Source of the DNA: a virus
IMG/VR virus record: IMGVR_UViG_3300046313_000316
Span: 1 to 23,724 of that record
DNA length: 23,724 bases
Strand: one strand, 5' to 3'
The notes beneath the pieces are model-generated. The model saw only the letters and a program-made list of their open reading frames with translations, was not told the origin of the DNA and searched no databases. Each line of letters begins with the position of its first letter. Position 1 is the stretch's first letter. Shown piece by piece: positions 2,529 to 22,885 of this stretch. Both the position numbers and the translations under genes were made by a program.

Positions 2529-3185
2529 TTAGGATTCTTCTAGAAATTTCTTTAGGATTTCTACTTGCTTTTGTTTCATATCAGGATCAGCAGCATAAGC
2601 AGCAGCAACACGAGCAGCAGCATGAGCAGCATAAGCAGCAGCAGCAGCATCATAAGCATCATAAGCAGCATCAGCAGCATCAGCAGCAGCAACACGAGCA
2701 GCAGCATGAGCAGCATAAGCAGCAGCAACACGAGCAGCAGCATGAGCAGCATAAGCATCAGTACGAGCAGAAGCAGCAGCAGCAGCAGAAGCAGCAGCAT
2801 GAGCAGCATAAGCATCAGTACGAGCATCAGCAGCAGCAGCAGCAGAAGCAGCAGCAGCAGCATGAGCAGCAAGCTCCAACTCCCCCTGCGTAGCCTCCCC
2901 GTTAGCGAACTTCTCAGCCACATCGAGCGCAGCAATGCTCCTTTGGTCTTTCATCAAGTGCTGCACTTCCCGAGCAAAAGCAACCGCCATCAACCGCTTC
3001 TCTTTGTCAAAGCCATCTACTGCTCTCAAGCACCACAACGTATCATCCAAACCATTGCTTTCAAGGATTGTCAACAAATCCAGCTCAACGTCATCTGCAA
3101 CTGTCTTACCAAGATGTTTCAACAACTTAGTCCAACCAGAAGTGCAAGGTGATTTAGAACGGATTTTATTTAGGTTAGTTTTCAT
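2529..3185 (-). CDS. Alanine-rich repeat-tail protein, paralogue 1
   Basis: A 218-residue protein in two parts. Residues 1-103 are a normal globular, probably all-helical domain (MKTNLNKIRSKSP... LWCLRAVDGFDKEKRLMAVAF ... RSIAALDVAEKFANGEATQ). Residues ~105-203 are a low-complexity helix of Ala with spaced His, Arg, Tyr and Asp, with units such as AAHAAARVAAAY and ARTDAYAAHAAA. A short charged end (KQKQVEILKKFLEES) follows. The arrangement recalls the alanine-rich 'putative immunity protein' (Imm5-like) group, but the match is only by composition. It has a paralogue at 4557-5183 with about 13 differences over the first 103 residues. Function unknown. Confidence 0.8.
   Translation of the reverse strand: MKTNLNKIRSKSPCTSGWTKLLKHLGKTVADDVELDLLTILESNGLDDTLWCLRAVDGFDKEKRLMAVAFAREVQHLMKDQRSIAALDVAEKFANGEATQGELELAAHAAAAASAAAAADARTDAYAAHAAASAAAAASARTDAYAAHAAARVAAAYAAHAAARVAAADAADAAYDAYDAAAAAYAAHAAARVAAAYAADPDMKQKQVEILKKFLEES
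2585..2871 (-). repeat. GCA/GCT-type trinucleotide-rich repeat inside the alanine-rich gene
   Basis: Nearly pure AGC/CAT triplets on the plus strand, with an imperfect 36-base higher-order unit (CAACACGAGCAGCAGCATGA core) seen around 2605, 2690 and 2720. The repeat keeps the frame, so slippage would change protein length without breaking it. It also creates long open frames on the opposite strand. Confidence 0.85.
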
Positions 3186-4176: not shown

Positions 4177-4560
4177 TCAATAATCAATATTTCCACATCT
4201 TGAGTAAGAGGTTTTTCCTGTTAGTTTAGTATCAAATACATATACAATCTTTTGTTGGTAGTTGCCTTTGTCAATATCTTCTTTATATACATAGGGATTT
4301 TCTTCGTACTTAAACATTTTGTAGTGCTTTGTCAGTCGTTCTACTTCATCTTTGGGCATCTGATAGTCCCAATCTTTTTTATCTCCGCAATCCTCAAGTC
4401 TACACATTTCAAGATAGAACGCTTGAGTTTGCTTTACGAGCCTAACCTCTACTAACTTTGGTTTCAAATCCACAACATCACCAACGATACCGTTCCAGAG
4501 CATTATATCTGGATTACCCTCGATGGTTTGTAAAAGTTCGATTAGTTTTTGTTTTTTCAT
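4177..4560 (-). CDS. Hypothetical protein of a phage 'EGNPDIMLWNG' family
   Basis: A 127-residue protein. The N-terminal KLIELLQTIEGNPDIMLWNGIVGDVVDL resembles a small family I have seen in many phages, where the first ~40 residues read 'L..l..leGnp.v.....' followed by a beta strand; no function is known to me. The C-terminal half is charged and Tyr-rich with KTSYSRCGNIDY at the end. Its ATG overlaps the TGA of the upstream alanine-rich gene (ATGA), so the pair is an operon with coupled translation. A terminator follows it. Confidence 0.75.
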   Translation of the reverse strand: MKKQKLIELLQTIEGNPDIMLWNGIVGDVVDLKPKLVEVRLVKQTQAFYLEMCRLEDCGDKKDWDYQMPKDEVERLTKHYKMFKYEENPYVYKEDIDKGNYQQKIVYVFDTKLTGKTSYSRCGNIDY

Positions 4561-5183
4561 TTTATAAATTTCTTTAGTATTTTTACTTGTTTATTTCTCA
4601 TATCATCATAAGCATCATCATAAGCATCATCATAAGTAGCATAAGTAGCAGCATAAGCAGCATAAGCAGCAGCAGAAGTAGCATCGGCAGCAGCAGAAGC
4701 AGCATCGGCAGCAGCAGCAGCATCAGCAGCAGCATCAGCAGCAACATAAGCAGCAGCACGAGCATCAGCAGCAACATAAGCAGCAGCACGAGCAGCATCA
4801 GCAGCAGCATCAGCAGCAACATAAGCAGCAGCACGAGCATCAGCAGCAACATAAGCAGCAGCACGAGCATCATTCAACTCTTGTTGTGTAGCCTCACCAT
4901 TAGCAAACCTCTCAGCCATATCCAGTGCAGCAATACTTCTTAGGTCTTTCATGAGGTGTTGCACTTCACGAGCGAAAGCAACAGCCATCAGACGCTTCTC
5001 CTTGTCAAAGCCATCTACGGCTCGCAAGCACCACAAAGCATCATCAAGACCATTGCTTTCTAGGATTGTTAGGAGTGAGAGTTCAACGTCATCTGCTTGA
5101 ACCTTACCTAAATGCTTTAACAACTTAGTCCAACCTTCTTTGCAAGGTGAGTTCAAGCGAATCTTGTTAAGTGATGTTTTCAT
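4557..5183 (-). CDS. Alanine-rich repeat-tail protein, paralogue 2
   Basis: A 208-residue paralogue of the protein at 2529-3185: the first 103 residues differ at about 13 positions (MKTSLNKIRLNSPCKEGW... MAERFANGEATQQEL). The alanine-rich tail (about 108-193) has a different unit, ARAAAYVAAD, and ends in YATYDDAYDDAYDDMRNKQ, so the tails expanded independently after duplication. The C terminus again is a short basic helix (VKILKKFIK). It is the first gene of a two-gene operon. Function unknown; keeping the N domain while the tail varies suggests the N domain carries the activity. Confidence 0.8.
   Translation of the reverse strand: MKTSLNKIRLNSPCKEGWTKLLKHLGKVQADDVELSLLTILESNGLDDALWCLRAVDGFDKEKRLMAVAFAREVQHLMKDLRSIAALDMAERFANGEATQQELNDARAAAYVAADARAAAYVAADAAADAARAAAYVAADARAAAYVAADAAADAAAAADAASAAADATSAAAYAAYAATYATYDDAYDDAYDDMRNKQVKILKKFIK
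4604..4872 (-). repeat. Trinucleotide-rich repeat inside paralogue 2
   Basis: AGC/CAT-type triplets with a 27-base higher-order unit (CAACATAAGCAGCAGCACGA core) that recurs at about 4741, 4771, 4816 and 4846. The end near 4604 shows three tandem CATCATAAG units coding for YDD-type residues. Confidence 0.85.
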
Positions 5184-7091: not shown

Positions 7092-7097
7092 ATTATA
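7092..7097 (-). promoter_or_regulatory. Promoter cassette for the 7069-to-5900 gene run
   Basis: Minus-strand AATGTATAATTCATCACATA only ~20 bases from the ATG at 7069, the shortest leader of the set. It overlaps the end of the 175-aa gene, whose stop is at 7093. Confidence 0.55.
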
Positions 7098-9812: not shown

Positions 9813-9844
9813 ATCTATATCCTTTGTAGTTTAATCCTTATACT

Positions 9845-10054
9845 TTATTTCAATCGAAAGAACTTAAGAACTTTAGTCAGTTTGCTTGGTTCGTATAACA
9901 CACCACCAGAGCAAGCACCTCTACGCATCATAAAGCAATTCATACCGTGATTACCGCCAGTTACTTCATTTTGCCCATTAACGGGATGATAGCAATCAAA
10001 CATTGATTCATGCTTGCAGTTCTTGCAATATTTATTAGTATTTGTACTACTCAT
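9845..10054 (-). CDS. Small Cys-rich (putative zinc) phage protein
   Basis: A 69-residue protein with C-x2-C near the N terminus (YCKNCKHES), CYHP next, then a Cys/Met-rich middle (MNCFMMRRGACSGGVLYEP). This pattern (CK.CKH...C.HP...........M.R..G.C..G...EP) is a common phage and bacterial small orphan family that probably binds a metal. Function unknown. No clear ribosome site before the ATG, which lies 10 bases after the previous gene's stop. Confidence 0.75.
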   Translation of the reverse strand: MSSTNTNKYCKNCKHESMFDCYHPVNGQNEVTGGNHGMNCFMMRRGACSGGVLYEPSKLTKVLKFFRLK

Positions 10055-21005: not shown

Positions 21006-21671
21006 ATGAAAAAGATCGAAGGCACTTTGGTATATGTCCGCATGAATGAGCCACAAAAAGCATATGTTAAACCCGGTACACCTCAGAAACCAGATGAGTG
21101 GAAAGCATCAGTTGTAGTAACTGACAAATCTGTAATTAAAGCATATCGTCAGTTCGCTAAAGAGTTAGACACGCTAGTATCCGTAAAGGAAATAGAAGCA
21201 GGTGATTTTGAAGCTGAGTTCAAGTGCCCACTACCAGAAGGTGCAGGTGATGAGGTATGGGTTGTTACCCTACGTAAATCAACTGAACTAGGTAAGACAG
21301 GTGAGCCAGTACCTGATAAGTATAAACCTCGTGTATATGAGCAAGTTCAAACAGATAGTGGCACTATCCGTAAGGATATTACATACACCAAAGAAGTAGG
21401 TAATGGTTCTAAAGGTGCTTTGAGTATTGAAGTATTCACTAAGACTAATGGTACTGGTACGTTGTATCTAAAGAATTGCTTGGTTACTGACTTGGTTGAA
21501 TACGAGCGCAAAAGTCTAGAAAATGATGGTGGTGAATTTGATGACGAGGATGACGCTCCAGCAGCTAAATCAGCGCCAGCTAAGAAAGCTGCTACGACCT
21601 CTAAAGCACCAGCAAAAGCCAAGGCTAAAGTGCAGGATGATTTTGCTGATGATGAGTCGCTTCCGTTTTGA
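21006..21671 (+). CDS. Single-stranded DNA-binding protein, T7 gp2.5-like
   Basis: A 221-residue protein. Residues ~1-165 have the beta-rich OB-fold character of phage SSBs (KKIEGTLVYVRMNEPQKAYV, KASVVVTDKSVIKAYRQF, WVVTLRKSTELGKTGEPVPDKYKPRVYEQV, GSKGALSIEVFTKTNGTGTLYLKNCLVTDLVEYE). A flexible Ala/Lys linker (AAKSAPAKKAATTSKAPAKA) follows, then an acidic tip DDFADDESLPF, like bacterial SSB tails that bind partner proteins. It coats single strands at the fork. AAAGGAACACACA precedes the ATG. Preceded by a TTGAAA-TACAAT promoter. Confidence 0.85.
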   Translation: MKKIEGTLVYVRMNEPQKAYVKPGTPQKPDEWKASVVVTDKSVIKAYRQFAKELDTLVSVKEIEAGDFEAEFKCPLPEGAGDEVWVVTLRKSTELGKTGEPVPDKYKPRVYEQVQTDSGTIRKDITYTKEVGNGSKGALSIEVFTKTNGTGTLYLKNCLVTDLVEYERKSLENDGGEFDDEDDAPAAKSAPAKKAATTSKAPAKAKAKVQDDFADDESLPF

Positions 21672-21673
21672 TG

Positions 21674-21679
21674 TATAAT
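21674..21679 (+). promoter_or_regulatory. -10 box (TATAAT) ahead of the structured non-coding stretch
   Basis: TGATGTATAATAAATTAGG begins at the SSB stop. It is the same TGTATAAT core as the left-arm cassette and the promoters at 22894 and 23380. It would transcribe the whole non-coding region and then the nucleotidyltransferase gene. Confidence 0.55.
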
Positions 21680-21680
21680 A

Positions 21681-21787
21681 AATTAGGTGTCCTGCTACCT
21701 TAATTGCAGAATTAAAAAGGCCTTTGCTGCGTTTGGGTTATTCAGGTTAGAAACAAGCTGACTGCTAGGAATAGACTAGCAAACTTT
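21681..21787 (+). ncRNA. Hairpin-rich leader of the non-coding stretch
   Basis: AATTAGGT (21681-21688) and ACCTTAATT (21697-21705) pair with one bulge. GCAG and CTGC (21706-21709, 21727-21730) close a loop with the palindrome AAAGGCCTTT. TGCTAG (21763-21768) and CTAGCA (21776-21781) form a 6-bp stem with a 7-base loop. No reading frame is convincing. Part of the same transcript as the tRNA-like element. Confidence 0.45.
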
Positions 21788-21789
21788 AT

Positions 21790-21877
21790 ATGCGGTGTCC
21801 CTTTACGATTCTTCTAAAATCGTGTCATTAAATAAAAGGATGAACGACAAGAGGTTTGATTCCTCCACCGCATTCCA
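21790..21877 (+). tRNA. tRNA-Arg(UCU)-like RNA without a D arm
   Basis: 88 bases. ATGCGGT (21790-21796) pairs perfectly with ACCGCAT (21867-21873), followed by T73 and an encoded CCA (21875-21877). Anticodon arm: CGATT, loop CTTCTAA, AATCG (21806-21822), with T33 and anticodon TCT, identical in the loop to normal tRNA-Arg(UCU). T arm: GAGG, TTTGATT, CCTC (21851-21865) with an A-C mismatch at the base. Only nine bases lie between the acceptor and anticodon stems, so there is no D arm. The 27-base variable region can pair TGTC with GACA. It may be a degraded tRNA, a decoy, or a tmRNA-like form. Confidence 0.5.
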
Positions 21878-21880
21878 TAA

Positions 21881-22015
21881 ATAATAGATAGTTGCACTAG
21901 GTACTTCTGCTGGTTAGTACTAATAAGCACTGCGGAACTGAGTATTCAGCGTTAAATATCGAAGCGCAGTTTTAAGGAGTTGTGTCTCCACTAACCTAGT
22001 GCAACTATCTATTAT
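21881..22015 (+). ncRNA. 135-base structured element closed by a perfect 22-bp inverted repeat
   Basis: Bases 21881-21902 and 21994-22015 are exact reverse complements (22 bp; core TAGTTGCACTAGGT). Inside lie TGCT...AGCA around a TTAGTACTAA palindrome (21908-21929), CTGCG...CGCAG (21930-21934, 21965-21969) enclosing CTGAGTATTCAG, and GGAG-TTGTGT-CTCC (21976-21989). This gives a multi-branch cloverleaf on a long stem. No T run follows, so it is not a simple terminator. An inverted-repeat mobile element is an alternative, but I see no target-site duplication. Confidence 0.6.
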
Positions 22016-22048: not shown

Positions 22049-22885
22049 TTGAAAAATATTCTAATTGGTTCTCGTGCATTGGATTACTGGATGGACTTAG
22101 GTATAGCACGTCCTGATAGCGATTGGGATGTAATTAGTGCAGAACCAATTGAAGGTACTGAATGGCACAAACCATCTATCCTGAATAACTCAAGTATTGA
22201 GCAGTACATTACAGCAGAGCACACAACAAAGCTAAATGGCGAGGTGTTATATGTTCCTCCACTGTGGGTACTGGCAGCTATCAAACGAAGCCACCTGCAC
22301 CGTTCTGAGGGCTTTGGTAAGCACATTACGCATTATCATAAGTACTTGCATAAGTACACCAAAGTACAGCATTCAATTCAGTACCCATTAGGTACTAACA
22401 TATCATCTTTATATCAACCCTTCATGCAAGAGCGCAGGAGACTTACGGAAATTGAGTACCCCCAGAGATACCCAAAACTAGATGTTACTGTAGAAGAGTT
22501 CTTTGATGATGCTGTACCTAAAAGGTTCAACCATGATTACTTGCATGAGTTAGTGCAGTACAATTCAAGTCCTATGTATAAAGCAATGCAGCGTGATAGT
22601 TCCAGAGCTATGTGCCACGAGGACTTATGGTTGGGGTTTACACATCAGCAGAAATTGCAATGCGTAGCAGAAGAAGTACAGGTGATTGCTTTAGAGAGAT
22701 TTATTATTCCAAGTAAAGGTAAATTCATGCTTGGGTTAGCATATAATAAAGCACTTGAAAAAGTATGCACTACTTTATGCTCTGGTTGGTTTAGGGAGTT
22801 CGCTATTGATAACTACCCAGAGCTATTGGATATGCTTGATAAAGAAAGATTAATTAAAGTGCTAAAGGTACTTCAAGTAATCTAA
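22049..22885 (+). CDS. Nucleotidyltransferase-fold protein
   Basis: A 278-residue protein with the Pol-beta nucleotidyltransferase signature at its very start: IGSRALDYW (Gly7-Ser8) then PDSDWDVI (Asp25 and Asp27), the metal-binding GS...DxD motif. Such enzymes add nucleotides to RNA, proteins or small molecules. The TTG start (AAAGGATTAATC before it) must be right, as the next Met, at residue 15, would remove the GS motif. Residues ~65-110 include VLYVPPLWVLAAIKRSHLHR; the rest is helical with no HEPN partner seen. It lies directly downstream of the tRNA-like and inverted-repeat RNAs. The substrate is unknown. Confidence 0.75.
   Translation: MKNILIGSRALDYWMDLGIARPDSDWDVISAEPIEGTEWHKPSILNNSSIEQYITAEHTTKLNGEVLYVPPLWVLAAIKRSHLHRSEGFGKHITHYHKYLHKYTKVQHSIQYPLGTNISSLYQPFMQERRRLTEIEYPQRYPKLDVTVEEFFDDAVPKRFNHDYLHELVQYNSSPMYKAMQRDSSRAMCHEDLWLGFTHQQKLQCVAEEVQVIALERFIIPSKGKFMLGLAYNKALEKVCTTLCSGWFREFAIDNYPELLDMLDKERLIKVLKVLQVI

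Follow-up and report, generated by a model that had tools for sequence, protein, structure and literature searches.

A covarying structured RNA beside phage tRNA genes, very probably a member of a previously uncatalogued phage RNA family

The DNA analysed here (the window) comprises positions 1-23,724 of the IMG/VR virus record IMGVR_UViG_3300046313_000316. Towards its end, a gene for a Gp2.5-like single-strand DNA-binding protein (21006-21671, assigned from a weak PHROG 112 match) is followed by a promoter-like box, a hairpin, a tRNA-Arg(UCU)-like RNA and a structured element of 135 nt, after which comes a DUF7275 gene (22049-22885) whose TTG start is 33 nt past the end of the element's closing stem. 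The features of this RNA cluster are collected in Table 1.

Table 1. Features of the RNA cluster, in window coordinates
Feature	Position	Strand	Basis or remark
Promoter-like TGTATAAT box heading the RNA cluster	21672..21679	+	Recurring motif
tRNA-Arg(UCU)-like RNA	21790..21877	+	Sequence; alignment with L153 and phage Av-05
Whole RNA, member of the unnamed phage RNA family	21881..22015	+	Model core 21894-22002
P1 closing stem, 5' arm	21881..21902	+	22 bp with 21994-22015; 6 of 7 modelled pairs covary
P1 closing stem, 3' arm	21994..22015	+	Longest inverted repeat; covariation
P2 hairpin region, TACT/AGTA around CUGGU	21902..21919	+	6 of 6 model pairs with double changes
P3, 5' side	21926..21927	+	Partner 21991-21992; covariation model
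P4, 5' strand CUGCG	21930..21934	+	Partner 21965-21969 CGCAG; 99% of cells paired
P4, 3' strand	21965..21969	+	Covariation alignment
P5 hairpin CUGA-GUAU-UCAG	21938..21949	+	4 of 4 pairs with double changes; recovered by RNAalifold
P5a, CG-UUAAAUAU-CG, T-loop-like	21950..21961	+	Near invariant among members
P6 hairpin GGAG-UUGUGU-CUCC	21976..21989	+	4 of 4 pairs with double changes

The TATAAT at 21674-21679, named as a promoter in a preliminary description of this DNA, is real and lies within a recurring TGTATAAT motif, present in the window as eight exact copies and three copies of the form TGnTATAAT; a sigma-70 scan omitted it because it has no -35 match. Such boxes (at 21672, 22892 and 23378 on the plus strand and at 7092, 6295, 5867, 5218, 3552, 3222, 2492 and 1516 on the minus strand) are found mostly at gene boundaries, several being followed by TCATYCATC or a similar sequence, and a TGTATAAT box also follows the corresponding gene, at the same place, in Curvibacter phage P26059A. 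The hairpin GACTGCTAGGAATAGACTAGCAAA (21760-21783) recurs, unchanged or almost so, in about 15 Acinetobacter phages (BS46, Obolenskvirus), with several of the copies in unannotated gaps, and may mark another small RNA. Elsewhere in the window, on the minus strand, two paralogous ORFs (2529-3185 and 4557-5183) have long Ala/Asp/Tyr-rich repeats.

Directly upstream of the element is the tRNA-Arg-like RNA, which the preliminary description overlooked together with the tRNA-array context seen across the family described below. Its acceptor has 7 bp, its anticodon hairpin carries the loop CUUCUAA, and a T arm is present together with a CCA encoded in the DNA, but there is no normal D arm. The closing stem of the element begins 3 nt beyond this CCA. 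The same layout without a D arm occurs in L153 (9547-9637) and L012 (1998-2082), this odd form being common to the present phage, a relative and the E. coli phage Av-05, and ARAGORN misses all three. In these RNAs a short CCC-type stretch can pair with the enlarged variable region (CCCUUU/AAAAGG, CCCUC/GAGG and CCCAC/GUGGG).

The two 22-base ends of the element are exact reverse complements and form the longest perfect inverted repeat in the window for loops of up to 250 nt, the runner-up being 13 bp. Across 20 Markov simulations the longest repeat ranged from 10 to 13 bp, and chance would give about 1e-6 repeats of 22 bp, in agreement with the earlier judgement that such pairing is very unlikely to be fortuitous. 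As RNA, 21881-22015 has a folding energy of -51.7 kcal/mol (z = -7.5 against shuffled sequences), a check of the kind originally suggested. It had also been described as non-coding and lacking a T run, and both points hold: no ORF of at least 50 amino acids in the window's ORF list covers it, and neither a T run nor a scanned terminator was found 3' of the closing stem.

Searching with blastn and the window element gave a match to one named phage, Curvibacter phage P26059A, where the corresponding locus is 44904-45094 of KY981271. Using the pattern GCGTTAAAYATCGRAGCG, taken from the core of the P26059A sequence, IMG/VR was sampled by pattern scans for more members, and a covariance model (R1) was built from seven relatives with the window sequence excluded. 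With R1 the window element scores 70.2 bits (E 3e-17, with 263 kb searched), and with a further model, R2, 83.9 bits. R1 gave 30 matches with E below 1e-11, of which 27 are distinct, and to these we added P26059A and L038, which score weakly because of an insertion and were counted as members since their core and stem are alike. Thus, 29 distinct members are known: the window element and 28 further relatives in phage records, namely 27 uncultured-virus contigs and P26059A. Each positive record searched holds one copy, about 100-175 nt in length. The long closing stem is a subgroup trait shared by the window, P26059A (about 17 bp) and L038, while most members have 7-8 bp.

No family in Rfam 15 corresponds to the element, either at the gathering threshold or at E up to 5, and a literature search returned no description of the RNA family; the earlier remark that no described phage RNA with such a layout was known to its author is sustained, in that no catalogued family matches. 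Among 50,697 phage records searched by sequence with the window element and six other members, P26059A was the sole member, the few other matches being short stretches, mostly within coding genes, that we attribute to chance. In bacterial genomes a pattern search gave 15 matches, none with the flanking helices of the fold, and R2, applied at reduced sensitivity to some 800 bacterial genomes from one order and from a sample of one phylum, gave none. The RNA is also absent from the examined parts of the closest polymerase relatives, L153-L156, which were recognised by synteny through DUF7275 and the DNA polymerase.

The consensus fold comprises, from 5' to 3', the closing stem P1, the P2 hairpin, a GUAAA joint, P3, P4 enclosing the P5 hairpin and the P5a loop (CG-UUAAAYAU-CG), and P6, whose loop contains UGUG. 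Support for this arrangement comes from an alignment of 27 distinct sequences with a mean pairwise identity of 67%, in which 91.6% of cells pair, compared with 31-40% when the 3' partners are slid by 1-3 columns. In 25 of the 32 base pairs both partners change, and covariation scores 0.51 compared with 0.15 for shuffled controls, none of 500 shuffles reaching any of these measures. The outer pair of P4, for example, exchanges between U-A, C-G and A-U among members, and the GGAG/CUCC of P6 becomes AGAG/CUCU in P26059A; the P5 loop is of the GNRA type in several relatives, and P5a appears to resemble a T-loop.

As this first alignment had been fitted to the structure, the test was repeated on a sequence-only MAFFT alignment, from which RNAalifold independently returned P1, P2, P4, P5 and P5a; of the 22 pairs, 15 showed double changes. 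The invariance of the UUAAAYAU loop and of the 3' strand of P4 is partly a matter of ascertainment because members were fetched with core patterns, but the pairs of P1, P2 and P6 and most of those of P5 were left free by the search patterns. A mutual information analysis for pseudoknots gave as its top pairs the known helices and an alternative register of P3 (41-136), together with a doubtful contact to the P2 loop (29-38) that is possibly an alignment effect. The covariance search proposed in the preliminary description has yielded homologues with abundant compensatory changes, bearing out its view of a non-coding, structured element in which several branches are carried on a long stem.

In the window member P1, P4, P5, P5a and P6 consist entirely of standard pairs, with P2 and P3 only partly formed; P2 is strong in relatives but weak here, with some mismatches and a probability of about 0.002. 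For the window sequence by itself, the consensus interior is about 6.5 kcal/mol less stable than the minimum-energy fold, and P4, although supported by covariation, has a probability of about 39% in the single-sequence ensemble, so folding of this one sequence is misleading for the interior. The interior hairpins of the preliminary description, at least three in its count, need correction in this respect, since covariation backs only some of those in the minimum-energy fold of the single sequence.

The placement of the family is regular. In 23 of the 29 members the RNA begins some 12 nt or less past the 3' end of a same-strand tRNA or tRNA-like sequence: 18 start 1-12 nt, mostly exactly 2 nt, after a tRNA called by ARAGORN, with no opposite-strand tRNA in their loci, and five more (window, L016, L027, L079 and L099) come after sequences that we read as tRNA-like but for which ARAGORN makes no call there. 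The adjoining tRNA may be of the Met, His, Ser, Thr, Val, Tyr, Pro, Ala or Arg type, being tRNA-Arg(UCU) in P26059A, and in 12 members another tRNA lies within 10 nt downstream, often 5-9 nt after the RNA. Three members (L015, L072 and L108) have no adjacent tRNA, and in L108 a TGATATAAT box is found just upstream of P1, suggesting that the RNA can be its own gene. Other RNA-like elements closed by long stems, which do not belong to this RNA family, adjoin a family member or lie in the matching gap of the relative (L010 at about 4300-4800, L153 at about 9837-10015 and L024 at about 1220-1309 on the minus strand), and phage tRNA clusters may hold several such RNA families.

Taken with the fold, these data make it very probable that the element is a real RNA gene of a previously uncatalogued phage RNA family that resides near tRNA genes. 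As to what it does, the reading we favour, and consider reasonably probable, is that of a small non-coding RNA gene that is co-transcribed with phage tRNAs, freed by host RNases and active in trans. Transcription would start at the promoter at about 21674 and run through the tRNA-like gene, and the RNA would be released by the host enzymes for tRNA processing and double-stranded RNA (RNase P, E and III), with P1 shielding its ends. The stable product could then act through its conserved core, made up of the UUAAAYAU loop, the GUAA joint and the UGUG loop. Its most likely binding partner in the infected cell would be a host protein, the ribosome or another RNA, a mode of action also suspected for other RNAs encoded in phage tRNA islands.

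A somewhat unlikely alternative, in our estimation, is that the fold acts in cis, marking or performing cleavage at tRNA 3' ends as an RNase landing site or a new self-cleaving ribozyme, with no role after the tRNA has been made. The highly regular spacing of about 2 nt after the CCA could equally mean a role in tRNA processing, the short distance to a downstream tRNA fits as well, and theta ribozymes beside phage tRNAs provide a precedent (PMC10879173). However, an encoded CCA followed by 2 nt gives no obvious exact cleavage product, none of the known ribozyme families match, and a purely cis role is made less likely by the single copy, even where the locus has as many as 25 tRNAs, by the different tRNA neighbours and by the members that stand without an adjacent tRNA. 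We think it rather unlikely that this single-copy RNA of unrelated phages constitutes a new functional class, whether as a self-cleaving ribozyme linked to tRNAs or as an antagonist of a host defence or translation factor. An anti-defence or host-takeover decoy, mimicking the tRNA elbow or a ribosomal element and so absorbing a nuclease or regulator, would be one particular version of the trans-acting reading and, so specified, seems improbable: the T-loop-like UUAAA loop, the location in tRNA arrays, the one copy per phage and the restriction to phages within the searches made are all compatible with it, but neither a defence system nor a partner was found.

Two further explanations concern the window locus more narrowly. 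The short distance from the stem to the TTG start would suit a regulatory 5' UTR leader of the DUF7275 gene, yet in P26059A and many other members it is a tRNA or other RNA that follows, making a leader very improbable. The perfect terminal repeat and compact size had also raised the alternative of a mobile element (a MITE or IS remnant) with the 22-bp ends as transposase sites. This was not borne out and we reject it as scarcely credible, given that no record searched has a second copy, that the terminal sequences differ among members and covary while the folded interior is kept, and that the position at tRNA 3' ends is regular.

Stable RNAs in the tRNA clusters of phages are a long-standing observation, with RNA C and RNA D of T4 as examples. 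The new family combines strong covariation and compact size with a cultured carrier, the lytic phage P26059A, which infects a Comamonadaceae host strain (Curvibacter sp. IMCC26059), and so makes the role of phage tRNA-island RNAs testable in a small molecule. Current annotation misses such RNAs, as shown by the P26059A record, which has no RNA feature at the place of the element.

Comparable phage RNAs in a like setting, which the preliminary description also overlooked, include the T4 RNAs and GOLLD and ROOL. RNA C and RNA D (species 1 and 2) are small stable RNAs in the phage tRNA cluster, directly after tRNA-Arg in the order tRNA-Arg, RNA D, RNA C, and are still described as of unknown function (PMC9697503). 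Their position matches that of the window and P26059A members, which likewise follow a tRNA-Arg-like RNA and tRNA-Arg(UCU), respectively, but their predicted fold differs from that of the RNA family. Homology to them was considered and rejected: across the T4 RNA C/D stretch neither model of the new family exceeds 6.8 bits, which is close to chance, and a likeness to RNA D (GCGUUAA..AUC, 13 of 18 positions) that had looked promising gave nothing beyond noise with both models. GOLLD and ROOL are structured RNAs of phages and prophages, of unknown function and often near tRNA islands (PMC12286853); however, they are far larger (GOLLD often exceeds 800 nt) and form multi-subunit cages, and their Rfam models do not match the element. 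Theta ribozymes are HDV-like structured RNAs on the 3' side of phage tRNAs, but the HDV fold is a double pseudoknot, whereas the consensus here is nested with its 5' end paired to its 3' end and, in most members, leaves 2 nt between CCA and P1; the HDV-like Rfam models give no match either. This shared setting, with neither homology nor a model match, places the RNA as a new family within the loose kind of structured RNAs of phage tRNA islands.
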